Origin: Polytrichum commune
Lineage: Eukaryota > Streptophyta > Polytrichopsida > Polytrichales > Polytrichaceae
Assembly (NCBI GenBank): GCA_950295325.1
Contig: OX485808.1
Coordinates: forward strand, 23,764,527-23,828,526
DNA: 64,000 nt
Reading direction: 5' to 3'
The translations under genes were made by a program, and so were the position numbers. This document shows, piece by piece, positions 1 to 32,143 of the stretch. Position 1 is the stretch's first letter. Every line of letters begins with the position of its first letter. The notes under the pieces are model-generated. The model made no database searches, had not been told where the DNA came from, and saw only the letters and a program-made list of their open reading frames with translations.

Positions 1-490
1 AGGGGGGGGTTAAATGATTTTGGTTTATATTTTGATTTCATGTGGGTTTAGTTCAACTATGAAGGCACTCTAGTGAGCATTCTGGTTCGAGACCACTATT
101 TTGGAATTTCAGGTTGATAGGAAATAAGGGGATGTTAGGGGGGGGGGTTAATGATTTTGGCTTATATTATGATTTCATGTGGGTTTAGTTCAACTATGAA
201 GGCACTCTAAGGAGCATTATGGTCCGAGACCACTATTTTGGAATTCGAGGTTGATAGGAATTAAGGGTAGGTTAGGGGGGGGGGGTTAAATGATTTTGGA
301 ATATATATTTTGATTTCATGTGGGTTTAGTTCAACTATCCAGGCACTCTAGGGAGCATTCTGGTCCGATACCACTATTTTGGAATTCGAGGTTGATAGGA
401 ATTAAGGGGAGGGTAGGGGGGGTTTAAATGATTTCGGTTTATATTTTGATTTCATGTGGGTTTAGTTCAACTATGAAGGCACTCTAAGGA
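1..490. repeat. Tandem repeat of about 138 bp, about 3.6 copies, in an intron of gene A
   Basis: Successive copies of a unit containing ATGATTTTGG and GTGGGTTTAGTTCAACTATG start near positions 14, 151, 290 and 428, so the period is 137-139 bp. Each unit carries a run of 7-11 G just before the conserved start. The array ends about 25 bp before the splice acceptor of the first visible exon of gene A at 517, so it occupies the 3' part of an intron. Copies differ by few substitutions, which suggests recent expansion. Confidence 0.9.
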
Positions 491-516
491 GCATTGTGTA
501 ATTTGTTTACTTTCAG

Positions 517-3500
517 ATTTCCGATAATGCGACAACTATGTTTGAGGACATAGTTCAACAGGATCGCATCCCCATCGACATGTCTGTGCCTTCCGAGCCT
601 CTAGCTTTGGCTGCATATATTGAGGAATGCAGGATCGCGCTTTGGGACAATGCATTTGTCTCGGTGTTTCGCGGTCACGACTGCTTTAAGAAAATTGATG
701 ATTTCCAGGGATACAAGGGAACGGACCTTGTTGTGAGAAGAGTCCTCTTCAGGTGTTTGCTCTGTTTGCCTTTCATGCTTTGATTTCATACTTCTATTTC
801 CCGCTTTATAAATTCCAAATGTTTCATGTTCTTATGGCCATCATTATTTTCCAGGTTCTTCAAGTTTGAGCTCCTTCCAAAGAAAGTGATTCTCAAAGAG
901 GACTTGCCGCTCTTCTTGAGTACTTGGTTGAACCGGTCCAACGCTGCATGCATGTTCACAGCTGCCCAGCTGTCGCAACCCTTGCTAGCCCCCCCTTGAC
1001 CATCTTGCCAATTTTCAATTCTAGCAAAGGTTACGAGTGGCTAACCCTTCGCATACCGCCATGCTAATGGTTAGCTCCTCTAACCCCGGACCAATAGTTC
1101 ATAGGAGGGAACCAACCCTCCTACTTTGCTTTCGGGACTCACCCCTTAATCGGTAACCCATTTCCCCAATGTGGACTTCCATCCATGGAAGTCCAATCCT
1201 ATGTTGATCATCGCGTTGCCGGAGCAACACTACAACAACCTGAACCATACTAGGCAACTATGGCCTCACAATAGGCCAAAGCCCATGGAGGCCTTGCCGT
1301 TCGGCCTCGGGTGGGTGAGGCCACACCACCTCACCCATATAAGCCTCTAGGACTTCACGCGGGGCCCCTACCCCACCGTCAACCAACCTCTTGTCTCTCC
1401 ACCAAGAGTTGGGGCCAAGTGGACACTTTCCCTTAGCCGCTGGGCCTAGAAGCCCCCATCAGCTTCAGACCATCATAACTTCCTTGTATGATGTCTGATT
1501 CCAGCAACCAACCACTCCATCCTCATCTACGCTTCACGTAGATGCGGATGGACTCCTCATTTTCCCCATTCGGGCAAGTCTTGAGGAAGTTATGCCTGTT
1601 TGAACCTTGGCAGTCCCGGGAATCACTCCCAGGCACTGCTGTACCAGGGCGCTGTCCCGGGACAACGCCCCACTCAAATGGCCATAACTCCTACCTCACA
1701 CCTCCGATTGAGGTGTTCTTGAGCTTTCTAGAATCACCACGCCATGAGCTACGCATAGCTCATGGCCTTACCCTTGTGCCTCCTAGTCTTCGTGGGTGGG
1801 AGGCGTTCCCAACGCCCGGGGCCCTCACCCACACTAGGATCACTTGGGCCCTCTCACCAACGGCGCCACAAGTCCCGGGTGTCACTCCGGGGTCCCCCTT
1901 GTGCCCATGGTGTTTCGGGCACTCCTCATGGAGAGGTGCGCGACACCAGCAGAGGACATGGACGACTTCACACCTTGCTTCTGGCGCGTGGTATTTCGAT
2001 TGTGCTACACATTACACCCCACCTTTTGAGATGGAATTGAGGAAATCACGCGAGGCTATTGGAGAGTCTGGAGAGGAGATGCATGACTTGAAGGGCATCG
2101 AGGATGACAACGATAGGGCTAAGGCACTGAAGAGGCGGATTGAAGAGGACCGCAAGAAAGCCCTCAAGGTGAAGGAGGCAGAAGAAAAAGCTCACCTGAA
2201 GGAGTTGGAGAGGCAGCAGAAAGCAGCTGCAAAATCGACGAAGAAAGGCAAGAAGAAGGTGTCAACTCCTGTAGAGGTAGAAATGATAAGTCATGTGCAG
2301 CCTAGTCCAACCGTGGACTCTGGTTCCCAGATTCGCTCAGTTTCAGCTAGGGGTACTAAGAGGGACACCTCATATGAGCTCTTTTCCCAGTTGCCGGTTG
2401 TTGATCTCACAGAGAAGGCCAATTGCATGAATGATGAGTTCATTCTTAATTCATCATTGTTTGAGGTCCTTGGCGGTGAATCGGGCAGTTTATCGCCCCT
2501 CTATGATGACCTCAAAGCTTTTATTTCTAAGGTATCTTTATTCTCATTTGCCCATCTGATGTGGTTATGTTTTGCAACTGGTAGTGTTTAGTTCTCCATT
2601 TCTGTTTGCTTTTGAAATTGTTACGTTTCTTACATGCATTGAATTGCTCATTTAGCAGCATTCATCTGATAAAAGGCGTGCGCACAAAGGATCTTCTGGA
2701 AACCACCCTTGTGTGGATTTGATCCTTGTGGACCAACCAGAAGGTCTCCCAGTTCCAGGTATTTCGAACCCTATTTCATCTGTGCCCTTATGGAACCAGG
2801 ATTCTAAGGAATGGCTGGAGCTCATTTTTGATTTTGCCGACCAACACCTCCAGGATGGTGGTGCACTCATCATCATTCATCCTTTTCAATTGAGCACAAA
2901 GTCAAACATACTCGAATACTGCAAGTCCTACGGATTTGAAATCCGCAAGGAATGGTGGGGGATGAACCGTCTGCATTTGACATCGGCAGTACATCCGACA
3001 TCCACTGTAAGTTCAAAACTATGTCTTGTGTTCTGATTCGGCTTTGACATTAAGGATCTTCACACATGATTTGATTATCCATGGACATTGTCATTCTTGT
3101 CTAATATTGTTGTTCAAATGCCAAACCATGAGATTTGGCATCTGTTTGGCGGTGAGGAGTCTTTCAGGGGTTCCCAATTCTACATTTTCTTTTCAGCCAA
3201 TTCCTGCTCTTGACCACCACGGAGTAGACGTTGCCAGAGATGACATCCTCATGAACCTGGTCACAAAAGATGATCAGCTCATGAATGGCAATTTGCCTTG
3301 GCGAGGCCCTCGGGAGAAGTCCGTCTTGCTCATGCAGATGCTTATAGAAGCGTCTACCTTTCCTGGGGATCTCGTGGTTGACTGCACTGCAGCCACTGGT
3401 TCGTTTTCTCAACCTAAACCCTACTCAGTCTCAGTTTATTTTCCTCAAGGTTTCAACTTAATTTTATTTGTACATTCACTTAACACCTAAATCATCTTCA

Positions 3501-4022
3501 CTTCTCTAGGGTCGTCCATATACGCTTGTCGCAATATCAACCGATATATTGCCGCGTTTGAGCCGGATGAGGAAATCTTCAAGGCCTTACTGGCACCCCT
3601 CATCCGGGCTTCACCTGCTCTTTAGCCTCCTCACCTGGATCCACTCACCATCGTGGATGACATTGATGGCAAGGAAATTGAAGTTGAGCGGATCGTGAAG
3701 AAATCCCGATTCAGTAAGTAAGTCTAAACGTTCAAGTATGCATTTCTATTGAGATCATGTTGATTTATGTTACTTCTTATTTCGGCTTTCGTTTTGCAGG
3801 TGCGAGATCCTGATTTCTCCACAGCATCGACCTTTTTTTTGTAGGCCGACATTTTTCCCAAGCCCTCCTAAACCCTTTGAGTTGCCTACATATGCCGAAG
3901 AAATCGCTTTTTGTTTTGCAACTGAGGGCATACGGAATCCCACTTCGCGCTCCCGTTCTCTGTCTCGTAGAGGCTTGAGTTTTCTAGATCTAGAAGTTGT
4001 TCAGTGTGATGAGGAGGAGTGA
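517..4022 (+). pseudogene. Gene A: beta-class DNA methyltransferase-like gene, 5' incomplete and broken
   Basis: Exons deduced from GT-AG sites and from phase-for-phase agreement with gene B are 517-752, 855-970 plus 1951-2531 (split by a solo LTR), 2659-3006 (or from 2656, a TAGCAG choice), 3197-3398, 3510-3717 and 3800-4022. The first exon(s) lie before the window. The protein has an N-terminal part of unknown fold, a Lys/Glu-rich linker near 2080-2260, a motif IV-like segment VDLILVDQPEG (2707-2739), a GGALIII strand, then PWRGPREKS and a motif I-like segment VVDCTAATG followed by SSIYACR across the 3398/3510 splice. This order (IV then I) and the spacing fit beta-class N6/N4 DNA methyltransferases. 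Motif IV has lost the usual DPPY/NPPY form, so catalysis is doubtful. An in-frame TAG at 3623-3625 precedes coding that still aligns with gene B. The methyltransferase call is inferred from motifs. Confidence 0.72.
971..1945. mobile_element. Solo LTR (975 bp) inside a coding exon of gene A
   Basis: The segment begins TGTCGC and ends GCGACA, a perfect 6-bp inverted terminal repeat with the TG...CA ends usual for LTRs. It is flanked by the direct repeat CCAGC at 966-970 and 1946-1950, a 5-bp target duplication. Removing the LTR and one CCAGC restores an open frame that aligns with gene B (A: MFTAAQQRTW..AWYFDC; B: MLTEGIMKSW..GWYLDC). A TATA-like CCATATAAG lies near 1336-1344. No internal retrotransposon coding is present, so this is a solo LTR left by recombination. 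Confidence 0.9.
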
Positions 4023-4560
4023 ACGCATTCGTACACTTTTTCAATGATTGCTTGCAATTTGTTAGGCGAATGTTGTGTTGAATAAATGACCCTAAACCAT
4101 TAGTGTCACCTCATGTAACTTGGCATTCAAGTGTGTTTTCTAATACCTCTATATGAGTATGTTCAACAATGATATGAGATGCACACCTATCTTACACAAT
4201 GGTCTACAAGTTGACTAAAGTATACACCAACGAAAAGTGTACCCTAAACCCAACTTCCACTCTATTCTTCAATAAGACATAGAGGTTAACTAAAAAAAAT
4301 AAAGAAATGTAGTTGTAAAAATATAGATCAAAACATGAAACAAAGACTAAGGAAAACTAAACCGAACAACTAAACCAAAATATTAAAGATAATAAGTATA
4401 GAATATCAATACAATTTTTAGAATTACAAATAATAAGAAGATACACTGGAAGAAGAATGGAAGAATTAAAAAATGAGAATATAGATTGGAAGAAGAATGG
4501 AATAACCCAAAAAATGCTTGTGCATAAATTATGGACATCATCCTATGTTTTATGTTCAAA
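4023..4560. other. AT-rich spacer, no gene seen
   Basis: This stretch downstream of gene A is AT-rich with no recognisable ORF. It leads into the tandem repeats that follow. Confidence 0.6.
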
Positions 4561-4599
4561 TCAAACATCAAACCCCAAGAAATTCGGGGCCATATCCAA

Positions 4600-5310
4600 A
4601 GTGGCCACTCCCGCATGACATATGAACCACTTGGCATGCCGAGACTCAACCTGAAACCAATGATTTGAGGTCAAATTTATAAATTCAGGTTGAATGTAGC
4701 TAAGCATGAATCCTAAACATTGCATGTCCTCATTCAACCTGAAGCTATCAACTTGACCTCAAATCAAACAACAAACCCCTAGGCCTTTGTCCAAAGTGGC
4801 CATATATGCCGAGACCGAACATGAAATCTAAGCCGTTGGGCATGTCGAGACCCAAATTGAAACCAATGATTTGAGGTCAAATTTATAAATTCAGGTTGAA
4901 TGTAGCTAAGCATGAAACACAAACATGGCATGCCTACATTCAACCGGAAAGCATAAACTTGACCTCAAATCAGACATAAAACCCCTAGGCCTTTTCCAAA
5001 GTGGCCATGCCGAGACCGAACATGAAATCTAAGAGACCCAAATTGAAACCAATGATTTGATATCAAATTTATGGCTTCAGGTTGAAAGTAGCTAAGCATG
5101 AAACCCAAACATGGCATGCCTACATTCAACACAAAGCGATAAACTTGACCTCAAATCAGAAATAAAACCCCTAGGCCTTGTCCAAAGTGGCCATGCTGAG
5201 ACCGAACATGAAATCTAAGAGACCCAAATTGAAACCAATGATTCGACTTCAAATTTATGGAGTCGGGTTGAATGTAGCTACACCCTTTAAACACAATCAG
5301 AATGTAGGGG
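4600..5310. repeat. Tandem repeat of about 185-205 bp, about 3.5 copies
   Basis: The phrase ACCAATGATTTGAGGTC recurs near 4656, 4862, 5048 and 5232. It is followed each time by CAGGTTGAATGTAGCTA-like text and by CCCCTAGGCCTTGTCCAAAG. The spacing falls from about 206 to 184 bp through small deletions. The unit also holds inverted halves (TTGAGGTCAA and TTGACCTCAA). No coding is evident. Confidence 0.85.
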
Positions 5311-5318
5311 CTCAAGCC

Positions 5319-5670
5319 ATGAGGCCTCGGATCCGAGGCCTTGTCCAAGTGGGATTTAGTCCACCTCAAATGACAACCTGTAAGCATCCGAGACCCATTC
5401 CCAACCTACAAACCTTATACCCAATCTGAAATGATACCGCAGCCATGAGGCCTCGGATCAGAGGCCTTGTCCAAGTGGGACTTAGTCCACCTCAAATGAC
5501 AACCTGTAAGCATCGGAGACCCATTCCCAACCTACAAACCTTATACCCAATCTGAAATGATACCGCAGCCATGAGGCCTCGGATCCGAGGCCTTCTCCAA
5601 CTGGGATTTAGTCCACCTCAAATGACAACCTGTAACCATCCAAGACCCATTCCCACTCTACAAACCTTAT
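5319..5670. repeat. Tandem repeat of 126 bp, about 2.8 copies
   Basis: ATGAGGCCTCGGATC starts at 5319, 5445 and 5571, giving an exact 126-bp period. The core GCCTCGGATCCGAGGC is a perfect palindrome in copies 1 and 3. The last copy is cut short near 5670. The array borders the older 185-205 bp array and shares the CCTTGTCCAA phrase with it, so it may derive from it. Confidence 0.9.
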
Positions 5671-5859
5671 AAGAGAATCTGCAAGCAAATATAGTATAGG
5701 TTCCTCAACCACGGTTATAGGTTATTTTTGTCAAAAAAATTGTCAAAAAATATTTCAATATTTAGCTCTACACCGCGGTCATAGGGCATGTTTCACCACA
5801 CAAAATTTCAATATTCTACAAAACTCACCGCTCACCGCTCGCAAAATAGTTTTTCCCCA

Positions 5860-6344
5860 AACCATGAAAGATATTGTTTACAACATTTAGAGTTTCCTTT
5901 GAAACACTTAACCTCGACATTAGGATTTCGGGAAACATAAACTTGAAAACCTAAGGCACTTTCTCCTTGGAGATTTATAAAAGGAATCTTAAAATACAAC
6001 ATTCCGGATTTGAAGAAATAAGATTATCTTGCGAGATCTTTCAAACCATGAAAGATGCAAGAACGAATAGATGATTAAGAACTAGGGAAAGTAGTTTCTT
6101 AGAGAGCACTTTAATATTAGATTTCGGGGAACATAAACTTGTAACCTCAGGTCAACGATACCAAGAGGATTCAAGAGTAGTAAATTAAAGATTACAAGTA
6201 TTAGTCAACAAAGAGTTAACGGACACCTTCACAAGTTTTGGAAGCTAAGAGAATCTAATTTTGGTGGGAGTAACTTCCATGTAAACTGGTCAGCAACGGG
6301 TTGCACCGTCTAAGTTTGCTAAGGGTTTGAAGGTGACCTCGACA
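5860..6344. mobile_element. Partial LTR, 3' end of the 39.5-kb and 43.6-kb LTR family
   Basis: The 3' half matches the ends of the solo LTRs at 39544-41728 and 43624-45470. Shared phrases include AACACTTAACCTCGACATTAG, GATCTAATTTTGGTGGGAGT-like text, and the terminal GGTGACCTCGACA. The segment ends at CA 6344 exactly as in the other copies. The 5' part, including the TATA box, is absent, so the LTR is 5'-truncated. It abuts the 3' end of the minus-strand transposase gene at 6345 and supplies that gene's last codons and stop. Confidence 0.8.
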
Positions 6345-9300
6345 GACGTGCGATGTGCCACTTACTTTCGTCACAAGCTGATTCTTGAACTGCTGTAACA
6401 TGCTGCAAAGGAGCAAGTGGGGTGACATCACTTACTCGAGTCTTGCCGTTCGATTGTTGCGGCGCAATTGGAGTTGCAAACGTTTCAGGAGATTCAGAAT
6501 CAGCGGTTGGTGAGGCCGTTTGAGAGTTTTTTATGGAAGACCGCGTTTGCACTCGGGGACGAGAGATGGAGATCTTGTCAGGTCAGTGAGAGTCAAGTTT
6601 CGAACCTGGAGGAAGGTCAGCCTTCCGTTTCAACGATAGGAAGACTTCTTCACCTTCTAAGTGTGGCGTGCGGATGCAAAACTCTTGCGCTCCGGGCATT
6701 CTAGTCATTGCTTCGTGAAGGGACTTGGTGTTGCCGGTAATCTCCGAAGAACGTTGTGCGGTACGTAACTTCAGCTCTTCCTTGGACTGGCCAGTACCAG
6801 CACGATCTCCTTTTAAGTACTGGTAGTACGAGACACAATGCATAAATGCGCACACGTAGTCATCAACTGTTGCAACGTATGGATCCTTACCACGGTGGCC
6901 GGATTGTTGGAGCCACTTATTGTGCACGGTCTCGGCCAAATTGCAGGAAGGCATTTCAGCCAACTCAACTTCGTTCAAGTCCTATGGAGAAGGAGTTTAG
7001 AAAGAATCGATTAGGAAACATGTAGGAGACGATTGACGATTGCTTTATCAATGGATGGGTAGACGTTCAATGAGCGAAGAACTTACCAATTGCATGAAGC
7101 CACCCCATTGGCGGTAGCGGAAATGCCAAAAAGTAAGCCAGAGGTCGAGTCGGGATATGGCATCCTCAGATGCGGCACCGGACAAAAGCCACCACGCGCG
7201 AATGGCAAGGGAGCGCATTTCAGCTTCAGAAATGGTCTTGACGTTCTTGTATTGCTTGCAAAGCAATCGGTGCTGATCTTGAAGGTCGAGTCTAATGTAG
7301 GCCTTTGTGTGCTTCTCGAGGGACTGAGTCCAGTGAAAGAGGCACATTCTCTCCTTGTTTTCCATGGGCATAGATGCATCTCCGTTTCCGTAGACAATAC
7401 GGATAGCATTCCAATTGGCTTGAGCGCTATCTACCATAAACCCTTTGAAGTTTGGTTGAGGAACGTTGTGGCGAGCCATAACAGCGTTGAGGTTTTTCCA
7501 AACCACAATTTGAGCAGCGGTATCCTCGGACTGCATGTCGTAGACGGCAATGGTCATTACTCGACAAAAGATGGCATCATAAACATGGCACGCCATTGTA
7601 CTCCAACTTTGCACACGCTTAACATGGTCAAACATGAGCCAGGCGTTTTCGAGGTCTCCACCGGCTTGCATCCGTTTCACGAGGTCGACTCCACTACCCG
7701 GTCCTACCTCAGACATTTTGAACACAAAGACCTTGTCAGTTTCCGCTCCTTGGCCTGGAAACTTGTTCTCCTGGACATAAGGCCAGTTGCTTGACCCACG
7801 AAGTTTGGTGATGCTATCCATAACCCCAAATCTACGGATGTATTTGAAACCCGATACAGTATTACAGATGCTAGGCGAAGTAAGGTGCTTACAACGATCA
7901 AACAAAGGCAGGAGGTCATATACAGAGAGGAATTTTGGTTGTGAACCCTCAGGCACTAGGAGCATGTCTCCAACTAAGTCTTTGCTAGCTTCCAAAACTA
8001 AAGCGGAGTTGGTAGTTGTAGGAGTGCTTTGAATTTGTTCACTCAGGAAGCTGGTAGTATGCTCAATGGAGTCGCGATAATCACCAGTTTTGACCGGATG
8101 GGCATGGATTCCGAAGTGAATACAAGCCCGAGTCATAGATTCTGATCCAACTACATAATAAATCCTAGCCGGACACAAGGCAACACAATTCGGCGAAACC
8201 TTACAAATGGAACAGACGATGGTTGAATCCTTGGGAGGCACGGTACCACACTCAAAGGGCAAAGATGAGTTGCCCTCCCACTCCGTTTCATTAATAGGTG
8301 TGGTGCGGTGTACTCGAGTAAGGAATTCACAGTCAACATTATCGCACCGTAAATGACCTAAACAGGAAGAGGTACGAAAAGTGAGACCAAAATCGTTAGA
8401 GATGTTGGACGTGATAGTTCGGGTCCAGGCGTGGCCATCGAAACGTTTGTCCATACCACAAAGTTGTTTCGCTACAGTCAGCCGAGTGGCAGAAATTCAA
8501 AAATGATATCTCCGTCAAATGTAAGCGGGAGGTACTCAACCCTCTCTATTGTAATGGTATCATAATCGATTTTGGAAAGAACGTTCTTTGACCTCTTTCT
8601 GGATGCAAGTTGTTTCAGTGAATCTATGACACTAGTAGACTTGCTAGTAGACTTGCCAGTAGAATTGCTAGTAGGTTGTGAATCGGAGTCTTTGGGCAGA
8701 TATTTTGTGCTACATTTCTCAAACATGTGGCTGACATCGACATTTGGAAGAGGGCAAGAGTCTCTCAATTCATAGATAGTACGGAGTCCAGGCTCAATCT
8801 TCACTTTTCTAAGAGATGGTGTCTGAACGGATGACATGGACGACTCTCTGGAAGTAAGTAACTCGGTAGATGCATCCATGAGAGAAATAGAGATTCCGTA
8901 GGCCCAAAATTTTCCTGGCTTCAAGAACCAAACCTTCCCGTCATCATTCCTGAAAGAGAGTTGTCCAATAGTTTGAATCGCTTGAGGGGATTTGGATTCA
9001 AAAATTTCTTCCTCAATGTGGACAGACTCCTTTTTGAACAGAAATTGGAGAGCAAGACTTCACTCACTAACTGTGGCATAACCAGCAGGACCAACTGGAA
9101 AAGTGACTGGCACAGGATGATCATCAGCACGAATGAATGCTAAAGCGGAGGGCTGCACAGGGGTACTCGTCTCAAACACATTTGAGTTTGAAACAAGGAC
9201 GTCCTTACTATCAGAATCGTCACTGAGGTTATGGATGGTATGATGATCAGGTTCTACTTTGACTTGTATAGGAACGAATGGATCAATGCTAACAGTGGAC

Positions 9301-9602
9301 GACTGTCGAGGAGTGAGTATTTCAGTGGAAGCAGGCATAACAGAATCAGGAAGTCCGTATGCTCGATATTTTCCGGGTTTAAGCGACCAAAACATACCGG
9401 CATCGTTCGTACTATGCAACTGACCAATTGCGTGCTAGAGGATTCCAGATTCATTGTCAAAAATCTCCTCCTCGACAAACAGTGCATCTTCATGAAATTG
9501 GAACCTAAGACTAAGCGTAGTTGAGCTAACGATGGCATAACCATTCGCACCCAAAGGAAACGTAATCGGCACAGAATGCGAATCAGCACGAATGAAGGCC
9601 AT
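6345..9602 (-). pseudogene. Decayed transposase gene with GCM/WRKY-like zinc domain, Mutator-like
   Basis: The start is ATG at 9602-9600 (MAFIRADSHS). An N-terminal block of about 160 codons is duplicated in tandem (MAFIRADSHS at 9602 and LAFIRADDHP near 9143, each followed by an EEEIF and a LKPGK block). The next part (start ATG at 8454) begins MDKRFDGHAW, with a Cys/His cluster: C31, C37, C42, C81, C84, C111 and His 113-119. Candidate catalytic residues are D293 (VYDAIF) and D342 (MVDSAQ), followed by a CLFH motif at 371-374 of the kind seen in Mutator-like transposases. A GTAAGT donor near 7085 pairs with an acceptor near 6981. The downstream exon encodes VHNKWLQQSG and a polar tail. Lesions are TAG at 9437-9435, TGA at 9062-9060, a 1-base frame change near 8495 and TGA at 6585-6583. 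The 3' end is cut by the LTR. The superfamily call is inferred. Confidence 0.7.
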
Positions 9603-10200
9603 TGAACCGTAAACAACAGAGGAAGAAGAAGAGATTGGATCAAAGAGGGAATGCAAGAGACGATCTGAAGCTAGAGTTCTGCAATTTATAAGCTCCAGGT
9701 TAGGGATACCTTGAATCCAGACTACCAAGCTTTGTCTAATCATGTGCTGGTATACAACAGCATAAATAATTATAATTACTGTGAAACGTGGTAAGGAATC
9801 GCAATTAAAAAATGGATGGATCTCAACAACTATATGCATTAATTGTCCGCACCTTGAAATGAGCAACTTGACATGTCAAAAATGGAGTGGAATAAGACGT
9901 GGGCATCGGAATTAGAAATTGACTGGAATAAGACGTGGGCTTTGACGGCGCAAGCTCTATAATACGAACACGACATATGTCCAGCATGGATGATCCACAT
10001 GTTCATCTATGTATAGTTAAAAACCTGCTGGAACAATTCAGAGAATGGATGGATTTCGGTAGTCGTTAAAATCTTCCCATGCAATAAATGTATATTAAAA
10101 AAAAATCCATGTGCACTTTTAGAAGAGTCTTGTAAGGCACGAAAATGTACACCTGTAAATCATATAAGAGCAATCGGAATTTGTAGTAAGCGAGAACAGA
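9603..10200. other. Spacer between transposase gene and LINE
   Basis: This is AT-rich sequence upstream of the minus-strand transposase start, presumably its 5' leader and flank. No terminal inverted repeat or ORF could be supported. Confidence 0.5.
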
Positions 10201-12846
10201 ATGCTGGGAGTGAGTGCAAGAAAAAGACGCAAGCGTGGTCTCCTCTTTACAAGTGCAAACACATGTGCACACAACTCTGGACTACTAACACAATACTATA
10301 CTGAAAAACAACATAAACACTACTCAAACTTAATAAACGCTCACTTTGCCACAGAACAACAACGAGATACGAGATATGTCACCCCCGCAACAAATATCCC
10401 AATGGCACATATCTCTATCCATGAGTGTAACCCCGAAAATGACATAGAAACCTCCACAAATACTATCCAAACGCATTTTGATGTTGCCAACATATATGAG
10501 GACAAGGGACGGCACCTCATTACCATTCCCAAAACCAGACTACATTGGCTCTGGAAACAATACCAACTCGCACAAAATACCCCACATGGGTTAGAACCAC
10601 CTACACAACCATTCGAAACTGAAATAGTATGGCTATACCAAAGGTACAAGTACCGGATCCCAAAAAATGACCCACTAAAACTAGCCCAATACACATTACC
10701 AACTCCAATATTAAATTTTCTCATCACATCATTCAACATTAGCCATTCATACTTCTCATCCCCAGTCACATGCCCTACACAACTTAATAGATTTTACTCT
10801 CCATTCGCAAGAGATAAAATATTTGGATCATTAGGGAAAGCCTTCGACCACAAATGGAATGGAATAGGCTTTGCCCACCCCAACAACGCTACAGACCTAC
10901 TACAGGCTACACATTGGGCCCGTCTTGCTGCCAAAGATGACCCAAGCAACATCACAATAATCATCTCACCTGACATAAATTGGTACCAAAACTTCAACCC
11001 ATACTCGGGCCCATTCCCAGATACACATATTATCGCTCACTTTGCGGCAGATACAATCACATACGAAGAACCTACTATACCACCTGAACTTAATATACCT
11101 AGGAAAGAACTCTCCACACTACAAATACTCTGCATACACCACCAAAATAACCACATAGGCACCTATGAACAGCTAAATCAACTCACCCATATTGCAAATA
11201 ACCTCTCAATAACACAACTATACACACAAATTGCCATGCACACCCCCCCGAATACTCCTGTCGTCCCTAACAAAAAGTGGTCCAAATTAACTTACCCCGA
11301 TACCCCCATACTCAATGTATCACCTATACCTCAACTACCGGACTACCAAACTAACTTACCATTGAAATACCATCCACAATATAGTTATTACACCGATGGC
11401 TCATTCAAAGAACCCAAACTAATCTCTACCGGAGTATGGAGGAAAGAAATGGCAGGACATGGTATCTATAGCCCTAAAGGACTAAGTATAGCCGAAAGGC
11501 TATATGGACACCAAAATATCCTCAGAGCAGAAATGATGGCTATACATAAAACATTGCGAATTATCAACGACCAATATCCAAATGAGCCCGCATATATATT
11601 CACCGATAGCCTCAATGTCCTATACCTACTAAACACACAAATCAAACACCCCACACTACACAATAGTCACCCAGACCAAGTCACACTTGCCTCCATGGTA
11701 AAATTACTCCAAAAACGCTCTCAACCAACTACATTATACAAAGTTAGAGCACATGTCAACATAGACGGCAACGAACAAGCAGATAAATTAGCAAAAGAAG
11801 AACTGGACCTTACCCATAGAAATGCCATACACCCACACGAACACGGTCATGCCACACCTTACTACTATCAAAAAGACAAATGGCCCTCCATGATAGACAC
11901 GCCAGACAAGGGCCCAGTCAGATTCCTAGAAAAATAAATGAAAAAATATGATAGAACAAACAACTTAGAAAACATGGCCGCACAAACCCCTAATATTTGG
12001 AAATGGATAGGCAATGAACACATTGACAAGGAACTTTCTAATGAATTATGGAATAACCCTACTATTACGGACAAACAAAAGTCATGTCTTATCAAATTTT
12101 GTACAGGAACTTACATGGGCCAAGCCAGAAAACAACTCTTCTTTGGTAGACAAAGATTCCCCACCATCACATGTCCCATCTGTAACTCATACGAACCTGA
12201 CACATGGCTACATGTACTACTCACATGTAGGCAACAACATATTCACTCTCTACACGTAAAAAGACATAACAAATCAGTATGGGAAATAAGGAAATTACTA
12301 ATCTCATCTGAAAGATCCCGATGCTACACCCTTATGAACGCTGGCACCTTTAATGACAACCCCCAAGAAAACACCGTCCCTAACTGGTTATTACCCTGCA
12401 CATGTGGAACCCAAAGATGTCACTGCAACTCCCGTTTTAAACCCGACATTCTTTGCGTGAAAGGACTACCATATCAAAATACACCCCCCACAAATGTAGA
12501 CCAAACAATTACCATACAATTCATTGAATTCACATACTGTAATGATAGATTTTCACCAGCAACTCTAGAAGCCAAAACTAACAAATACCAACCACTGATA
12601 GAAAGCATTGCTACCCTAGGTTGGAAAACCGACCAGCTTATTGTTATTACAGCAAACGCCAGAGCCGCAACACACATCCCATCAATGAAACTATTGGAAG
12701 ACAAATTTAAAATACCTATGTCATCCATCCGAAATACCTTCAAAAACATTAATACCATTGCGATACAATACGCCATGTCCATCTTGCTCCACAAAAGAAG
12801 ACTTGAAACTCACCAACCTCTACCTCAAATACAAGACCCCCCCTAA
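10201..12846 (+). pseudogene. LINE ORF C-terminal part: methyltransferase-like segment, RNase H, zinc knuckle
   Basis: A 578-codon frame (10201-11937) is followed, in the same frame, by a 302-codon frame (11938-12846); one TAA at 11935-11937 separates them. Homology to the second LINE copy begins near 10285, so the first 28 codons are probably flank. Residues about 180-290 contain FSSPVTC, RDKIFGSLG and HKWNGIGFAHP, resembling the layout of PCIF1-type methyltransferases but without an NPP[FY] motif. Residues about 395-535 form an RNase H domain with D399 (YYTDGSF), E444 (LRAEMMAI), D469 (IFTDSLN) and D528 (NEQADKLA), all present. The second frame holds a C2HC cluster (C79, C82, H92, C97) and a CTCGTQRCHC patch. 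The reverse transcriptase domain is missing, so this copy is 5'-truncated. Confidence 0.8.
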
Positions 12847-12890
12847 ACTCCCTAGATCAAACTAAACAAAACAAACCCTATATTAAACCA
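10285..12890 (+). mobile_element. LINE copy 1, 5'-truncated
   Basis: The extent is set by similarity to LINE copy 2 (42500-47190), which aligns from QYYTEKQH at about 10288. The 3' end is placed in the AT-rich stretch after the stop at 12846. The missing reverse transcriptase and retained 3' end are typical of incomplete target-primed reverse transcription. A 3' poly-A tail and target duplication could not be read with certainty. Confidence 0.75.
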
Positions 12891-13129
12891 TCCCTTGGGT
12901 ATAGTCTCCCTTTGTGTCATTAACCAATATTGGTCACTGGCTCTTATTTGTTATTGGTTACTTGTGACTATAGTGTCTACTCTCGAAAGGGGGAAGTAGT
13001 TCCTCACTTCTACTCCTATGTCCCGTGGACATAGGTTGGGTGGAACGAACAGACACTTCATTCACGTCGGTCCCCCTGGGGATCGAAGTTTCTTCTTCTT
13101 CTTCTGCAAAGTCTTTGAAGCGGAACAGA

Positions 13130-16100
13130 ATGGTTCGGACGAGGCGTTCAAGCGAGGAGAGGTGTGACATTACCGATATTGCGAAGGTGCTCAAATACAA
13201 TGATGAAGGACAAGAGAACCAACTAGAAGGCATACCAGAAACGCAGGAAGGGGGTAGCTCAAACAGTGAAGCTCATGATGCCCCAAGGAGCGATGACAGG
13301 GACGACAGGGACTCGGACTCGGTAAGTCTCGAAACTTAAAATTTTAGAACAAGAGTTGGGGCAAGCGGAACGGAAAAGGCTTTGTAGAGGCTAGTAGGGC
13401 GGGCATTGGGGAGGATAGTAGGGCGGGCAGGTGCTAGTGAGAGGGTTAGGCAAGCGGTAACCCTAGAACATATCTAGCAGCACCCTAAACATTTCCAAGC
13501 TTTTGAGAGGGTGCGCAAGCTGTGGCAGATGAATCATGCGCCGACAGCCATGGACACCAGGGAGGTCACAACGGGCAATCAAAGAGGTAGTACATCGAGA
13601 CAGCTTGGAGAGTTGTCGTCGACGGAGGTGCGCAACCTCGAGGGCGACATCGCAGGTGAGCCTTGAATCCTGAAACCCTAATAAAACTTTGCGGGTTTCT
13701 TCATGCTTCTAGCCTTCGGAAAACTTGTGCTTGTGCTTGTGGGTTGCAATCAGATTGCTTGTGGGTTGCTCTTTGTGTGTTGCAATCAGATTGCTTCTGG
13801 GTCGCTCTTATTGTGCTCTCAGGTTGCTTAGATTTCTCTTAAGGTGCTCCCAGGTCGCTCTTAAGGTGCTCTCAGGTTGCTTAGATTTCTCTTAATGTGC
13901 TATCAGGTCGCTCTTCATGTGCTCTCAGGTCGCTTAGATTTAAAAGTTGGAATTTTCATTGGGTGCCTGAGGCACCCCGCCGGTGCCGGCTAGGGGCTCT
14001 GGGCTGGACCCTGAGGGATCCTAGTTGCTCCCAGGTGGCTCTTAAGGTGCTCTCAGGTGGCTTAGATTTCTCTTAAGGTGCTCCCAGGTGGCTCTTAATG
14101 TGCTCTCAGGTTGCTTAGATTTCTCTTAATGTGCTCTCAGGTTGCTCTTAATGTGCTCTCAGGTCGCTTAGATTTAAAAGTTGGAATTTTCATTGGGTGC
14201 CTGAGGCACCCCGCCGGTGCTGGCTAGGGGCTCTAGCTGGACCCTGAGGGATCCTAGTTGCTCCCAGGTGGCTCTTAAGGTGCTCTCAGGTGGCTTAGAT
14301 TTCTCTTAAGGTGCTCCCTGGTGGCTCTTAATGTGCTCTCAGGTTGCTTAGATTTCTCTTAATGTGCTCTCAGGTTGCTCTTAATGTGCTCTCAGGTCGC
14401 TTAGATTTAAAAGTTGGAATTTTCATTGGGTGCCTGAGGCACCCCGCCGGTGCTGGCTAGGGGCTCTAGCTGGACCCTGAGGGATCCTAGTTGCTCCCAG
14501 GTGGCTCTTAAGGTGCTCTCAGGTTGCTTAGATTTAAAAGTTGGAATTTTCATTGGGTGCCGGCTAGGGGCTCTTGGCTGGACCCTGAGGGATCCTGGTT
14601 GCTCCCAGGTGGCTCTTAAGGTGCTCTGAGGTGGCTTAGATTTCTCTTAAGGTGCTCCCAGGTGGCTCTTAATGTGCTCTCAGGTTGCTCTTAATATGCT
14701 CTCAGGTCGCTTAGATTTAAAAGTTGGAATTTTCATTGGGTGCCTGAGGCACCCCGCCGGTGCCGGCTAGGGGCTCTGGGCTGGACCCTGAGGCATTGTG
14801 GTTGCTTCTAGGTGGCTCTTAAGGTGCTCTCAGGTGGCTTAGATTTTTCTTAAGGTGCTCCCAGGTCGTTCTTAATGTGCTCTGAGGTTGCTTAGATTTC
14901 TCTTAAGGTGCTCTCAGGTTGCTTGGATATAAAAGTTGGAATTTTCATTGGGTGCCTGAGGCACCCCGCCGGTGCCGGCTAGGGGATCTGGGCTGGACCC
15001 TGAGGGATCCTGGTTGCTCCCAGGTGGCTCTTAAGGTGCTCTCAGGTTGCTTAGATTTAAAAGTTGGAATTTTCATTGGGTGCCTGAGGCACCCCGCCGG
15101 TGCCGGCTAGGGGCTCTTGGCTGGACCCTGAGGGATCCTGGTTGCTCCCAGGTGGCTCTTAAGGTGCTCTCAGGTGGCTTAGATTTCTCTTAAAGTGCTC
15201 TCAGGTATCTCTTAATGTGCTCTCAGGTGGCTTAGATTTCTCTTAAGGTGCTCTCAGGTATCTCTTAATGTGCTCTCAGGTTGCTTAGATTTCTCTTGAT
15301 GTGCTCTCAGGTTGCTTAGATTTCTCTTAATGTGCTCTCAGGTCGCTCTTAATGTGCTCTCAGGTTGCTTAGATTTGTCTTAATGTGCTCTCAGGTCGCT
15401 CTTCATGTGCTCTCAGGTTACTTAGATTTCTCTTAAGGTGCTCTGAGGTTGCTTAGATTTCTCTTAATGTGCTCTCAGGTCGCTCTTCATGTGCTCTCAG
15501 GTTGCTTAGATTTCTCTTAAGGTGCTCTCAGGTAGCTCTTATTGTGCTCTTAGGTTGCTTAGATTTCTTTTAATGTGCTCTCAGGTCGCTCTTAAGGTGC
15601 TCTCAGGTTGCTTAGTGCTAAAAGGTGGAATTTTCATTGGATTGCTCTCAGGTTGCTCAAGTTGCTCTAAGGTTGCTCAGGTTTCTCTCTTGTTTCTCTC
15701 AGGTTGCTCGGTTGTTGCTCTCAAGTTGCTTGTAGCTTTCAGGTGCTGAGGGCTGAGGGCTGTGGGCTGTGGGTTGCTCTCAGCTATCATGCGAGACCGT
15801 ATTCTTGAAATTCTCGAGAAACAGGTCAGCCAATTTCTTGCCCTAAACCCTAAACCTTTGCCATGGATCCTTCCATGAAGGTACTTTGGCTTGAGCGTTG
15901 GAATCAGCCTACAAGCCTTCGGGTGCAACTGAAATTCCCCAAGCAAGGTTTCAACGATGACGCCTTTTACACTTGGCTGAATAAGGCAACATGGTGGGCT
16001 CAAGTATGTGATTCTCCACCTGCCCTCTTTGTTGAGTTCTCAAAAATTGTTGTTGAACTTTCATCTTCATTGCTAGTCCATTCCAAATTTGTTGTCTTCT

Positions 16101-18574
16101 GTGTTCATAACTCCTTTGTCTTGCTATGCAGTTGGCAGTGGAAGCACAAAAACTTCTCGATGGTGTCCTGCATGATCAAAAGGCCACCATCAACTACCAA
16201 CCTGATGGCCGGGATCCAATTCCCACCATTTTTTATTATATTGAGAAAATTCGCATTTCATTATGGGACACGGCATTCTTCCGCGAATTCGCAGTGGAGA
16301 AAGGAGTGAACAAGAACAACACTATCGACAAGCAGTACTTGTTCAAGCCAGCATTACACCGTGTCCTGTACCGGTACTTCAAATATGTCCTCTTCCCCTC
16401 CAAGGCTATCTCTAGATCCCCTCCATTCTTTGTTAATTTCTTGGAGATAGATAGTGAGGATTTCATGCTCACTGAGGGGATCATGAAATCATGGGATTTT
16501 GTGCACTGGGAGCGATGTGGTTGGTATCTTGACTGCCCAGCTTTGAAGGCCCCTTCGTTTGACATCGCTCTTCGGGACTCTATCCAACCACCTTCCCTTC
16601 GAACTGGGACTCCCTCGGATACCGTCGACACTCCACTTGAGGTGCTTGCCAGTCAACGGCCGGCCTCAAAATCCAAGAGGCAACCGAGGCAGAAAAAAGC
16701 TCCCGTTTCTTATCAGGTTCAGAGGGCCACTTCCCCGGTTGTGACGCCACCCCTCTTCTCTGCACCAGATGCTGCACATGCTTCAAGTGCATCTAGACTT
16801 CCTGCATCACCTCCGAGTCCTTCAGTACTTCCAGCAGAGCCAATTACGAAGTGCCAGAAAGTTGATGTCCCGGAGTCCAGTACGGCCACCACGTTCTTGT
16901 CTCCCCCTAAGCGTCATCCCATGAAGATGAAGGTTGTTGCATTGTCAAGCGCATATACTTCTCAGCAACTTCTTGTGAATGATTCTTTTGTTCAAATTGT
17001 GGAGGAGAAGACAATCACTGGAAAGTTCAGCACCAACTACGAAGACATTGTTTACTTTTTTAACAAGGTTTTCACTCCCCCTCATTTTCCAATTCACTAC
17101 AGCATTGCTTTCATTTTTTCAATGTCATGTTGTAGGTTGGTAGTTGGATTTTTGTGGCATTGGATATTTTTTTCAATGTCAAGTTCTAGCTCGGAACTCC
17201 CAGGACTTACATTCCTCTCCGTTTTAGGTTGGCAGTGGACGCCACTTCTACTCTCATGGCAAACTCATTCAAAAACCTACAGTGGACTTGCTTATTGCTG
17301 AGTACCCTGACGGGCAGAGAGTTCCTGGAGTTTTTAATCCCCCGTCTCAGATCCCACCTTGGAATGAGTACTCCGATTCTTTTCTTCAAGTGACCATGGG
17401 ATTTGCATATTCCTACTTGCATGACGATGGAGCCTTCATTCTTTTCTACCTCCATGGTTCGCAAGGAGATTTCATCATTTTTCAAGAATTACAAGATGAA
17501 GGTTCTTGACGAGTAGACCATCATCAATTATTTGCACCTTGCCAATCCCCTCGTGCCAGCCAAAAATGTTTGTTTCTTGTCCTTCTCTCTTTCCTACTAT
17601 TTTAACTAAGTTTTTACTTCTCTTCCGATTTTTCTTCTTAAGAGTTAGCTAATTGTTTGATTTACCTTTGCAGACTTTGAAGTTCAAGGCTATTCTTATA
17701 GTCAGATCTGTCCCTACTTCTGAGGCTAAGCAGCCAAAGAACCTCACGATCACTCCAGATCCTTCAGTCCCTCGGGTGGACTTAGCGTGTGATGATGTCC
17801 TCTTCAATCCTGTCACATCCGAGTCCCAGTTGATTCGTAAAAGCGATGGTTCGCCATGGCGAGGCCCGAAGGAGAAATCGGATGTTCTCATGAAGCTCTT
17901 TGTGCATGGATTATGTCCTCCAGATGGTATTGTCGCCGACCTAACCGCTTCCACAGATACCTCATACCCACTTCTCCTTCCTTTTTTACTTTTAATTTTC
18001 ATACCATGTTTCATACCATGTTTCATGTCCTAATTTATCCCATTACTCCAGGAGCTACTATTCGCGCAGCCCGTGCATGTAATCGCCACATTCTGGCTTT
18101 AGAGAGCGACTCTATGCTCTTTTCTGAAGTCCTTGAACCCCTGGCAGTTCCACCTCCAAATGCTTCGACTTTCTCTACTCCGGGCGACCTGATTGATGAT
18201 GACGAGTCCATTCAAGATGCCCCTTTGCACGATATATGTGAGTAAGTCCACGCCTTCGTTGGTTGACATTGTTTTCTATTTATCTCTTAATTGTAATCCA
18301 TCCTTTGTCCATCTCTAAATCTTGCTCTGAACATGGCAGTTTGACAAATCCAAGGAGACCACTACGAACTCCACCTTCAACTTGGTACTTTCCGTCGCCG
18401 CCCCCAAGTCCTCGTGGCTTACCTGTATATGTTGAAGTCATGGCCTTGGCGTATGCCCATGGTAGCTCTGGGAATTCGACATCCTTCTTCACTCCTAAGA
18501 ATCATGTCGACCCTCGAGTTCTACGCTACTTTGATTTAGAAGCAGTGTCGAGCTCTCTATGTAGCAGTGATTGA
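13130..18574 (+). pseudogene. Gene B: beta-class DNA methyltransferase-like gene, nearly full length but damaged
   Basis: A phase-compatible chain of exons runs 13130-13321, 13481-13655, 15784-15824, 15881-16003, 16132-17067, 17228-17567, 17674-17956, 18052-18241 and 18340-18574. The 56-bp intron 15825-15880 is unusually short; translation may instead begin at ATG 15863. The protein has an acidic N-terminus, a conserved domain with WLNKATWWAQ and IRISLWDTAFF, a Pro/Ser linker, VDLLIAEYPDG (motif IV position), PWRGPKEKS, and VADLTASTG (motif I position) followed after splicing by ATIRAARACN. This matches gene A throughout. Lesions are a frame change near 17450-17470 and TAG at 17514-17516 where gene A has Trp. 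The donor after 17956 reads AT, not GT. Motif IV lacks NPPY/DPPY, so even an intact copy may not methylate DNA. Function is inferred. Confidence 0.65.
13740..15760. repeat. Minisatellite of about 2 kb filling an intron of gene B
   Basis: Short units built on GGTGCTCTCAGGTTGCTTAG alternate with CTCTTAA and repeat dozens of times. In 13940-15120 they are organised into higher-order blocks of about 120-240 bp. These blocks contain AAAAGTTGGAATTTTCATTG, GCCTGAGGCACCCCGCCGG and GGACCCTGAGGGATCCT. The array fills intron 13656-15783. Nearly every unit contains CTCTCAGGT, which looks like a splice acceptor and donor side by side. The real acceptor of the next exon (TTGCTCTCAG at 15774-15783) is itself a repeat unit. 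Confidence 0.9.
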
Positions 18575-18821
18575 AGTAATGGCGACCTTCTTGATCATAC
18601 AAAGTATCTTGAGCTCCCAGGAATTGTCACGGATATAGGCCCCTTTAATAAAAATTGTGTTCTACAACTTTCAAGTTTTCAGTGAAAACCGCGGTCATAG
18701 AGCTCAAAAGTTTTCAAATTCTTGCTCTATTCCTGATTATAGGGCTTTATTTTCAATAAAAAAATATCTAAAAACTGTAGAAGTTATCGCTCACCGCTCA
18801 TTGCTCACTGCTCACATAATA

Positions 18822-19210
18822 GCATTCCTCCAAGTCAACCCGCTTGTTACAATCACAGCCGGAGTTAGAGGGGCCATCCACGAACAACCAATCAAAGAAT
18901 TAGAAAACCTTCAAATACCTAAGAGAGAAATCAAAACACTTATGAAACAAATACACCAAATTGCCATTAAATACCTCACATTTTTTATATTAAATAAAAG
19001 AAATCTAGACAACAAACAACCCCCCGTTGACCCCCCTTAGGGGCTAGGGACTCAGTCAGTGTGTAAACTAAAGGAGCCCACATCCGGAGAGGGAGGAAGT
19101 ACCCCTTATAGTGACGCTTGGTCAAACAAGACCACGGTAAAAGAGGAACGGGCTCCCATTCACGTCAGGGTAAAAGAAACCCGGACGTTGTTTTTATTTT
19201 ATTTTATTAT
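18822..19210 (+). mobile_element. LINE 3' fragment, 5'-truncated
   Basis: The frame ending at 19040 reads VTITAGVRGA...IHQIAIKYL...LNKRNLDN, matching the last 70 or so residues of LINE copy 1 (VITANARAAT...INTIAIQYA...LHKRRLET). The 3' untranslated part ends in repeated TTTTA units near 19187-19210. Only the extreme 3' end is present, typical of abortive LINE insertion. It sits about 250 bp past the stop of gene B. Confidence 0.8.
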
Positions 19211-31494: not shown

Positions 31495-32143
31495 GGAACC
31501 TTGATTGTTCTAAGAAAGTCATGTCCACGTTCGCCAACTTGTCTCAGGGTTGACACACAACCATAGGATGTAGATACGATGGACGGCTGAGATACTCCAC
31601 CCCTCCCGTGGCTCCATCGGCTGTTAGTGAAGGCTCCGTGCTCTTAAGCAGACGGACTCCAACCTTTCCTTAGCCGACCCTCGGATAGCTGGAGTGCATT
31701 TGTTTCCATTGAACTCGTGGTATTGCGTTCGTGCCGGTGTTGGTGAAGTTGTTCACTATAAGTTGGGGGTGGAGATGATGTTGGGCATGATGGCGTGAAG
31801 AAGGATGCATGGCATAATGATCCGGGGTTTTAGTTTATACCACATTGGCAAGAGCTTGTTGGAAATCGATCCAGTGTGACTTTTGTTTCTCAACATTCAC
31901 AAACGATCTGGCATCGAAGAGCTGTAACCGGATGAGTACTCTCTCGTTCGAGTGAGGTAGATCGTTGTTTCTACATTGTCCGAACCAAGAGTGCATGGGC
32001 GAAGGCAATCGCAAGGCAGCAAAAAGATGAGTGGCACTAACACGTGAGGCATTGACGGATGCTACTGCCGGCATAATCTTGACGAGGTCCAAAAGGAAGA
32101 ACCCACTCTCATTTCGAAGTGAAGTAGTGTCGGTGGGGTAGAA
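31495..32143. other. Upstream region of the membrane-protein gene
   Basis: This stretch has mixed composition and no supported gene. A 149-codon frame on the minus strand (31835-32284) overlaps the start of the membrane-protein gene and shows no recognisable motif. The region probably holds that gene's promoter and leader, but no clear TATA box was found. Confidence 0.45.

Follow-up and report, generated by a model that had tools for sequence, protein, structure and literature searches.

A transposon-borne gene of beta-class methyltransferase ancestry with a replaced catalytic motif in the moss Polytrichum commune

In Arabidopsis, the VANC protein binds a short motif spread through the tandem repeats of VANDAL transposons, in introns and upstream non-coding sequence, and removes silencing there (PMC5735166, PMC10398659). 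Here we describe a transposon family in the moss Polytrichum commune whose layout recalls these elements. It is seen from a window of 64,000 nucleotides (the whole stretch of DNA analysed; contig C6 of genome G000, G000:C6:23764527-23828526) that holds two damaged copies, genes A and B, of a gene which by its sequence descends from a permuted, beta-class amino-methyltransferase. The genome searched comprises 408 Mb in 64 contigs.

The likeness to VANDAL and VANC lies in the combination of a transposase gene with a DNA-recognising gene and in fast-diverging non-coding tandem repeats that hold a short motif (PMC5735166, PMC10398659). There are also differences. VANC contains DUF1985/DUF287 regions and, unlike the moss protein, is not known to have methyltransferase ancestry; no Pfam match to DUF1985 was seen in the N-terminal pieces of A and B that were scanned (most of gene A exon 2 lying outside them) or in the open reading frame (ORF) of copy L003. 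VANDALs are described as non-TIR elements, TIR standing for terminal inverted repeat (PMC6446971), whereas the moss elements have inverted ends. Finally, DNA binding is proven for VANC, whereas for the moss protein we infer it by analogy.

On the enzyme side, the moss protein resembles M1.HpyAVI and CcrM in placing motif IV before motifs X and I, in its motif I Asp, TG and ribose acid, and in a PF01555 score above cut-off. It differs from them in having D/E-x-P-E/D-G for DPPY, a conserved N-terminal region, introns and a eukaryotic transposon as carrier. To our knowledge, beta-class amino-methyltransferases are known in eukaryotes from very few cases. One is N4CMT of bdelloid rotifers, likewise eukaryotic, intron-bearing and a permuted N6_N4_Mtase; in contrast to the moss gene it is a host gene with an active SPPY and a chromodomain, is not described as transposon-borne in the accessible text, and is said there to have no eukaryotic homologues (PMC8885841). 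Other mobile elements with chromatin or DNA-modification genes include fungal elements with TET/JBP, elements with SET (MuDR, Harbinger) and DNMT retrotransposons, whose cargo, however, belongs to other enzyme families and for which no replaced catalytic core is mentioned in the accessible text (PMC12730594, PMC5890265). A survey of Mutator-like elements (MULEs) names mutB, vanB and vanC as extra ORFs, and the word methyltransferase is absent from its text (PMC6446971). Our literature search, with subscription journals mostly outside it, found no report of a beta-class amino-methyltransferase in a MULE-like element.

A transposon family with two divergent genes

The preliminary description of this stretch, made from its letters, had taken genes A and B for a plant gene pair. 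They are instead two decayed copies of a transposon-borne gene with hundreds of copies, and the number of copies, their inverted ends and the target duplications exclude a host gene pair. Searching with the motif IV exon of gene A returned at least 150 matches among 1077 candidates, and with that of gene B 75 matches at E<=1e-20; since the two lists share no place, at least 225 places carry this exon. In a blastn comparison, the homology between two young copies extends over about 15.7 kb, interrupted by gaps, and starts at GGGAAAARCTATTTTGCGAGCGG in each. This terminus occurs 91 times in the genome at up to one mismatch (reversed control, 0), and in 73 of the 91 a listed methyltransferase exon lies 1.4-5.6 kb further into the element, in the orientation expected. 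The opposite end, GGACGAAGCTATTTTGCGAGCGG, is an imperfect inverted copy in which 22-29 of the first 32 positions agree.

Eight elements were read at both ends. A target duplication identical at 10/10 positions flanks six of them, element A included, and a seventh shows 9/10. MULE target duplications measure 8-11 bp, and the combination of inverted ends with a duplication in this range (10 bp) was thus found in 7/8 elements. The eighth, E1, has both ends yet no target duplication (5/10). Its end abuts the middle of an older methyltransferase copy (L015, 1553-2072), which suggests that members of the family insert into one another. For a further element, at C7:18.9 Mb, one end was found and the other was not.

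Element A, which holds gene A, is a 16,905-bp transposon (G000:C6:23753479-23770383) for which both ends and the target duplication were read. Its right part occupies window positions 1-5857, the remainder lying left of the window. The terminal inverted repeat at its methyltransferase end (GGGAAAAACTATTTTGCGAGCGG..., minus strand, 5826-5857) agrees with the other end at 27/32 positions, and the right copy of the 10-bp target-site duplication (5858-5867) is identical at 10/10 positions to the left flank in L026. Element B has a probable right end at 18797-18828 (minus strand), recognised by eye as a C-type-like terminus (GGAATGCTATTATGTGAGCAG...), for which no target duplication was read.

The other gene of the family is represented in element B by a transposase-like gene on the minus strand (6319-9600, outer limits approximate), whose core ORF spans 7048-8496 and whose C-terminus is apparently truncated. 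That ORF has 88 listed copies and one fragment (2128 candidates, 88 scored). A divergent methyltransferase exon lies within 30 kb of 55/88 copies, at a median distance of 11.4 kb, and on the wrong side of five; 500 shuffles gave a mean of 0.85 divergent pairs and a maximum of 5. In addition, the subtypes of the two genes go together in the two large transposase groups. Among close relatives of the window transposase the partner is B-type in 12/12 (6 without partner), and in the 65-70% transposase group it is A/E/D-type in 41/41 (20 without partner); these counts are among the matches listed, and a copy without a listed partner is not counted as lacking one. Of the nine copies in the 61% group, two have partners, and these are of different types.

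The kind of transposase is read from its anatomy. Inspection by eye finds D, D and E arranged as in MULEs, the second D accompanied by CxxH, together with a C-terminal CxC...CxH, which appears as CTC...CKH in L019 and L020. Profile searches speak less in favour of this assignment: the protein has no Pfam match above cut-off, neither to MULE (PF10551) nor to SWIM, and its comparison with five other MULE ORFs of the genome was non-significant (hhalign P 0.28), the best alignment joining the D2-CxxH stretches. Similarly, in a genome scan with PF10551 (271 candidates) all 150 listed places were more than 3 kb away from any of the 88 transposase copies. Structure prediction of the window transposase protein alone gave a mean pLDDT (predicted local distance difference test) of 31. 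We call the transposase Mutator-like by anatomy only. With this qualification, genes A and B are almost certainly decayed second-gene copies of a DNA transposon family of about 17 kb, flanked by 10-bp target duplications and ending in imperfect inverted repeats, whose elements carry two divergent genes, one for a DDE/SWIM-like transposase and one for a protein derived from a beta-class methyltransferase.

Methyltransferase ancestry and the replaced motif IV

Genes A and B each have six exons on the plus strand and, as the preliminary description had read them, share exon phases, with a phase-1 intron inside motif I in both. Gene A consists of an N-terminal exon placed by alignment to other copies (517-752); exon 2 (855-2531, that is, 855-969 and 1944-2531, interrupted at 970-1943); exon 3 with the replaced motif IV (2659-3006, DQPEG at 2731-2745), the source of the genome matches counted above; exon 4 with PWRGxxEK at the motif X place and the first part of motif I, VVDCTAATG (3197-3398); exon 5 with the rest of motif I, an acid at the ribose-binding place (FEPD) and a TAG at 3623-3625 (3510-3713); and a last exon that matches L010-L014 (3800-4022). 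The corresponding exons of gene B lie at 15863-16003 (exon 1, MDPSMKVLW...ATWWAQ, matching L001-L009), 16132-17067 (exon 2, N-terminal region), 17228 to about 17568 (exon 3, motif IV EYPDG), 17674-17956 (exon 4, motif I VADLTASTG), 18052-18237 (exon 5, end approximate) and 18341-18574 (last exon, start approximate).

Both window copies are damaged, each with its own separate lesions. In gene A, the 974-bp segment at 970-1943 splits a sequence that runs uninterrupted in E1- and D-type copies, and the in-frame TAG at 3623-3625 is missing from 8/8 A-type sisters read there (the ninth gave no match). The second half of the motif IV exon of gene B is broken by a frameshift and a stop, at a place where 6/7 sisters (L099-L105) are open and L103 has a shift of its own; the splice donor after exon 4 is altered at 17957 and intact in both sisters read there.

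Joined, exons 3, 4 and 5 of gene A match the N6_N4_Mtase family PF01555 (curated cut-off 26.7 bits) at E 2.2e-7 and 31.5 bits, exons 4-5 aligning to profile positions 163-218 of 221; gene B exons 4 and 5 stay below the cut-off (E 0.005, 17.2 bits). Five sister copies exceed it, at E 1.3e-6 to 4.3e-10 (L001, 32.4 bits; L047, 29.0; L013, 31.8; L080, 40.4; L003, 29.9), and the C-type copy L001, in which exons 2-5 form one open frame, covers positions 1-216 of the 221. An A-type sister matches PHROG DNA methyltransferases at E 3.6e-8. Among solved structures, a six-copy profile finds 5hfj (titled adenine-specific DNA methyltransferase DpnA, which we take to be M1.HpyAVI) at 1.9e-9 and CcrM (6pbd) at 0.005, the latter over profile positions 18-204. 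The permuted order, with motif IV ahead of motifs X and I, is present in the L001 profile match and in the CcrM match. It can also be read in both window genes, where VDLILVDQPEG and VDLLIAEYPDG precede VVDCTAATG and VADLTASTG, just as had first been noticed. At the level of sequence, the PF01555, PHROG and solved-structure matches establish a beta-class (permuted) amino-methyltransferase ancestry for genes A and B, and with PF01555 found in gene A and five sisters they provide the family match by which the preliminary description had proposed to check its idea.

The N-terminal regions of A and B can be aligned to their counterparts in other copies, and the pieces of them that were scanned (exon 1 of A with the first part of its exon 2, and the first two exons of B) gave no Pfam match, in agreement with the conserved and unrecognised N-terminal region that had been pointed out. 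Structure prediction of the methyltransferase region (L095/L094 plus window exons) reached a mean pLDDT of 42.7. A relative sought in viral contigs yielded 33 pattern matches, 0 of them confirmed. The strongest PF01555 matches of the assembly (L085/L086; 9.6e-26 and 2.2e-16) are located in open frames of 248 and 501 aa on contigs C10 (47 kb) and C12 (61 kb); our guess is that these contigs are bacterial contamination.

The loss of the NPPY/DPPY core, noted for the two window genes at the outset, extends to the whole family as read: neither A, B nor any of 84 copies has it, and a catalytic (D/N/S)PP(Y/F/W) is found in 0/84. In its place stands D/E-x-P-E/D-G, with an acid at the aromatic position in 78/84 copies. 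That position is E in 53, D in 9, K in 3, Q in 2 and Y in 1 of the 68 copies, out of 69 hand-picked, non-random sources, in which motif IV was fully aligned, and D in all 14 copies read in addition, which belong to the B-type or to more distant types. Two copies from another organism (L094 and L095) have DVPED and share the motif I intron of the window genes. They are filed in a soil metagenome-assembled genome named Synechococcales cyanobacterium (CADCWO010000058.1 and CADCWO010000134.1, respectively) and, being intron-bearing, are probably eukaryotic contamination of the cyanobacterial bin and a second host of the gene family. Relatives with an intact DPPY, which the preliminary description had proposed to look for, did not turn up among the 84 copies; one copy, L001, has DIPYG, while its eight C-type sisters have DIPDG, and it also carries Lys at the ribose acid.

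Is the replaced motif maintained? A selection test used eight of nine chosen representatives (L074, with no gap-free exon, was left out), from four subfamilies and with no B-type or C-type copy among them; 53 sources had all three exons. Between subfamilies (22 of 28 pairs), the proportion of nonsynonymous differences (pN) was 0.13-0.22 against 0.59-0.87 for synonymous ones (pS), and omega, the ratio of the two substitution rates, was 0.07-0.14 in the nine pairs with finite dS, the other 13 being saturated. Within subfamilies (6 pairs), omega ranged from 0.31 to 1.36, a pattern expected after insertion. The motif I Asp and TG, the ribose-place acid and PWRGxxEK are invariant across six copies of six kinds. 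Taken together, the purifying selection between subfamilies, the conserved replaced motif and the invariant residues indicate that the methyltransferase-derived protein has a selected function and that DPPY was lost long ago, a loss now fixed throughout the family. Decay alone as the reason for the lost DPPY is excluded, the replaced motif being common to the types read and synonymous divergence near-saturated in the four tested.

The same test contradicts the idea that the methyltransferase-like gene is a functionless passenger captured in the manner of a Pack-MULE. Stops do occur in some copies and MULEs are described as picking up gene fragments (PMC6431247), but a multi-exon gene retained across subfamilies at an omega of about 0.1, and present in another organism, makes such a passenger highly improbable. 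The same paper notes that the Pack-MULEs of one report stay within 7 kb (PMC6431247).

A harder question is whether the protein might still be an active amino-methyltransferase, acting on N4-cytosine (4mC), N6-adenine (6mA) or another substrate despite its odd motif IV and marking the element's own palindromes so as to alter their chromatin or aid transposition. The preserved motif I TG and ribose-place acid leave room for S-adenosylmethionine (SAM) binding and hence for some activity, which is a point against a purely non-catalytic protein. The other invariant residues, the strong purifying selection and the single DIPYG copy would also suit an active enzyme, as would the palindromic targets usual for type II enzymes. 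Yet 78/84 copies have an acid at the aromatic position, and of the nine C-type copies L001 alone has the Tyr, together with the Lys mentioned above. Changing Ser and Tyr of the SPPY of bdelloid N4CMT to Ala ends 4mC addition (PMC8885841). We consider an active enzyme unlikely.

Tandem arrays, palindromes and a proposed role

Tandem arrays make up 15-40% of five element pieces, compared with 2.3% of the remaining window. Array units measure 295, 244 and 138 bp in the E1-type, the D-type and a third type (C1:468-472 kb). The best matches among these units (20-41 columns) coincide with GTGTCTCGGNNCCGAGACAC, in one case with an altered version of it; outside this site, the 295- and 244-bp units share at best a 16-bp match (E 0.023). 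An 18-bp palindrome of the TGT type has 1310 exact sites in the genome, its reversed control 0. The listed sites form 15 clusters on contigs C1 and C2, and 12 of these lie within 20 kb of a listed methyltransferase or transposase copy, as do 1.5% of random positions on the same contigs. The case for the TGT-type site, as a feature of the sequence, is strong. In E1, the sites are in the introns of the methyltransferase gene and upstream of it, central and away from the element ends.

In the window, element A has two tandem arrays (4633-5671; 186- and 126-bp units), the second of which holds perfect 18-bp palindromes, GGCCTCGGATCCGAGGCC, at 5323 and 5575. This A-type palindrome (GGC-type) has the TGT-type core with other flanks and occurs at 2217 genome sites. 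The arrays of element B lie ahead of gene B (13737-15730), with GCCGGNNCCGGC at 13979, 14756, 14968 and 15096. The VANC-like trait of recognition-like motifs built up in an element's own non-coding repeats is seen in the E1, D and C1:472 kb types and is not seen in C-type loci.

Palindrome arrays also occur on their own. Perfect 18-bp GGCCTCGGATCCGAGGCC copies, mostly at 96-128 bp spacing, form arrays away from listed elements at G000:C1:2252877-2257761 and C1:13974508-13976430, possibly a satellite derived from the transposon. Very large TGTCTCGGCACCGAGACA arrays, mostly at 295 bp spacing, fill G000:C2:26750259-26795099, the nearest listed methyltransferase copy being 32 kb off.

What might the protein do? 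A DNA-reading and probably anti-silencing role is favoured by the VANDAL-like layout, by the position of the methyltransferase-derived protein in VANC's place and by the palindromic sites. The protein would keep the SAM-pocket region and the beta-class order, while its fixed D/E-x-P-E/D-G would have cost it the usual base methylation; it would recognise dyad-symmetric sites, of which TGTCTCGGNNCCGAGACA is the best candidate, amplified in the non-coding tandem arrays of its element; and, once bound, it would protect or open the element against host silencing as VANC does. Palindrome binding, catalytic inactivity and anti-silencing are all argued here by analogy, and we offer the full chain tentatively, as a proposal somewhat short of an even chance. 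The preliminary description had suspected an acquired methyltransferase turned into a DNA-binding or scaffold protein: the profiles bear out the methyltransferase part, and for the DNA-binding part the support is indirect.

Palindromes are the usual target shape of type II methyltransferases. In a more specific version, a restriction-modification-type enzyme would have become a non-catalytic, sequence-specific reader of the palindromes amplified in the element's arrays, its anti-silencing role arising independently of VANC and reader and palindrome co-evolving as the subfamilies split, with TGTCTCGG, GGCCTCGG and perhaps GCCGG half-sites around CGGNNCCG as the co-evolving sites. This is conceivable, though we regard it as doubtful.

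Several observations weigh against an anti-silencing palindrome reader. Of the TGT-type clusters, 3/15 are not near a listed copy, and 3/6 listed GGC-type clusters are far from any. No TGT-type site was found in the C-type loci (L001-L009, 6 kb each) or in the B-type elements L096 and L097. In 6/7 element pieces the candidate core CGGNNCCG is denser than it is over the remaining window. In the sister elements of B its number runs from nine in one to 0 in L097, and it is 0 in the nine C-type loci. Its control, GGCNNGCC, equals it in element A (5 and 5) and likewise has a higher frequency in most element pieces than over the remaining window, so that the claim of one core common to all element types is weak. 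The four A arrays have no 7-mer common to all. CpG sparing was not seen in five arrays (observed/expected 0.30-0.44 vs 0.53-0.60 overall), and lasting hypomethylation is therefore not favoured. Lastly, the palindromes could be bound by the transposase or by a host factor.

If the arrays did belong to the transposase or a host factor, the methyltransferase-derived protein might have an unrelated role, for instance in binding SAM or a partner. The GGC-type arrays away from listed copies and the palindrome-free C-type loci agree with this, as does the indirect nature of the link between protein and palindrome. However, the arrays are placed in front of and within the methyltransferase gene, and transposase sites would be expected at element ends, so an unrelated role appears improbable. 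Alternatively, the protein could assist transposition itself, shaping element DNA or the transpososome with no part in anti-silencing, in the way suggested for MURB, as an accessory transposition protein, in Mu. Such a role would fit the way both genes stay together, divergent and with matching subtypes, in the A/E/D and B types, and MULEs may hold further ORFs (PMC6446971). The central position of the TGT-type palindromes, in methyltransferase introns and upstream and off the element ends, speaks against it, and we consider it rather unlikely.

Neighbouring features and wider meaning

Between the two genes of element B, and not part of that element, lies a retroelement piece on the plus strand (10168-12846) with Pfam matches to RNase H (7.2e-12) and, upstream, to a PCIF1_WW-type domain (2e-9, above cut-off). 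By eye, this PCIF1-like domain seems to have HPNN at the place where PCIF1 has NPPF. The genome contains at least 150 matches to PF12237 at E<=1e-6 among 697 candidates, in frames that reach 2924 aa; these may represent a second family of mobile elements with a domain of methyltransferase type. Further along the window, an open frame of 427 aa on the plus strand (32123-33406), rich in hydrophobic stretches and with no Pfam match, probably encodes a membrane protein. In the genome as a whole, Chloroa_b-bind has 18 strong matches, as befits a green plant; fourteen chlorophyll a/b-binding matches with identical profile scores fall within about 95 kb (G000:C5:1751760-1846160).

For the moss and for this enzyme class, the family described here represents a beta-class amino-methyltransferase carried as long-term cargo by a eukaryotic DNA transposon, its catalytic motif rewritten and under strong selection. 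It also carries a warning for plant annotation, where N6_N4_Mtase matches may be transposon genes rather than host writers of 6mA or 4mC. If the link to the palindromes is true, these elements would add a second example, of independent origin, of transposon anti-silencing by a sequence-specific protein, and they would offer a ready test system, with a defined 18-bp site, hundreds of elements and subtypes with different sites.

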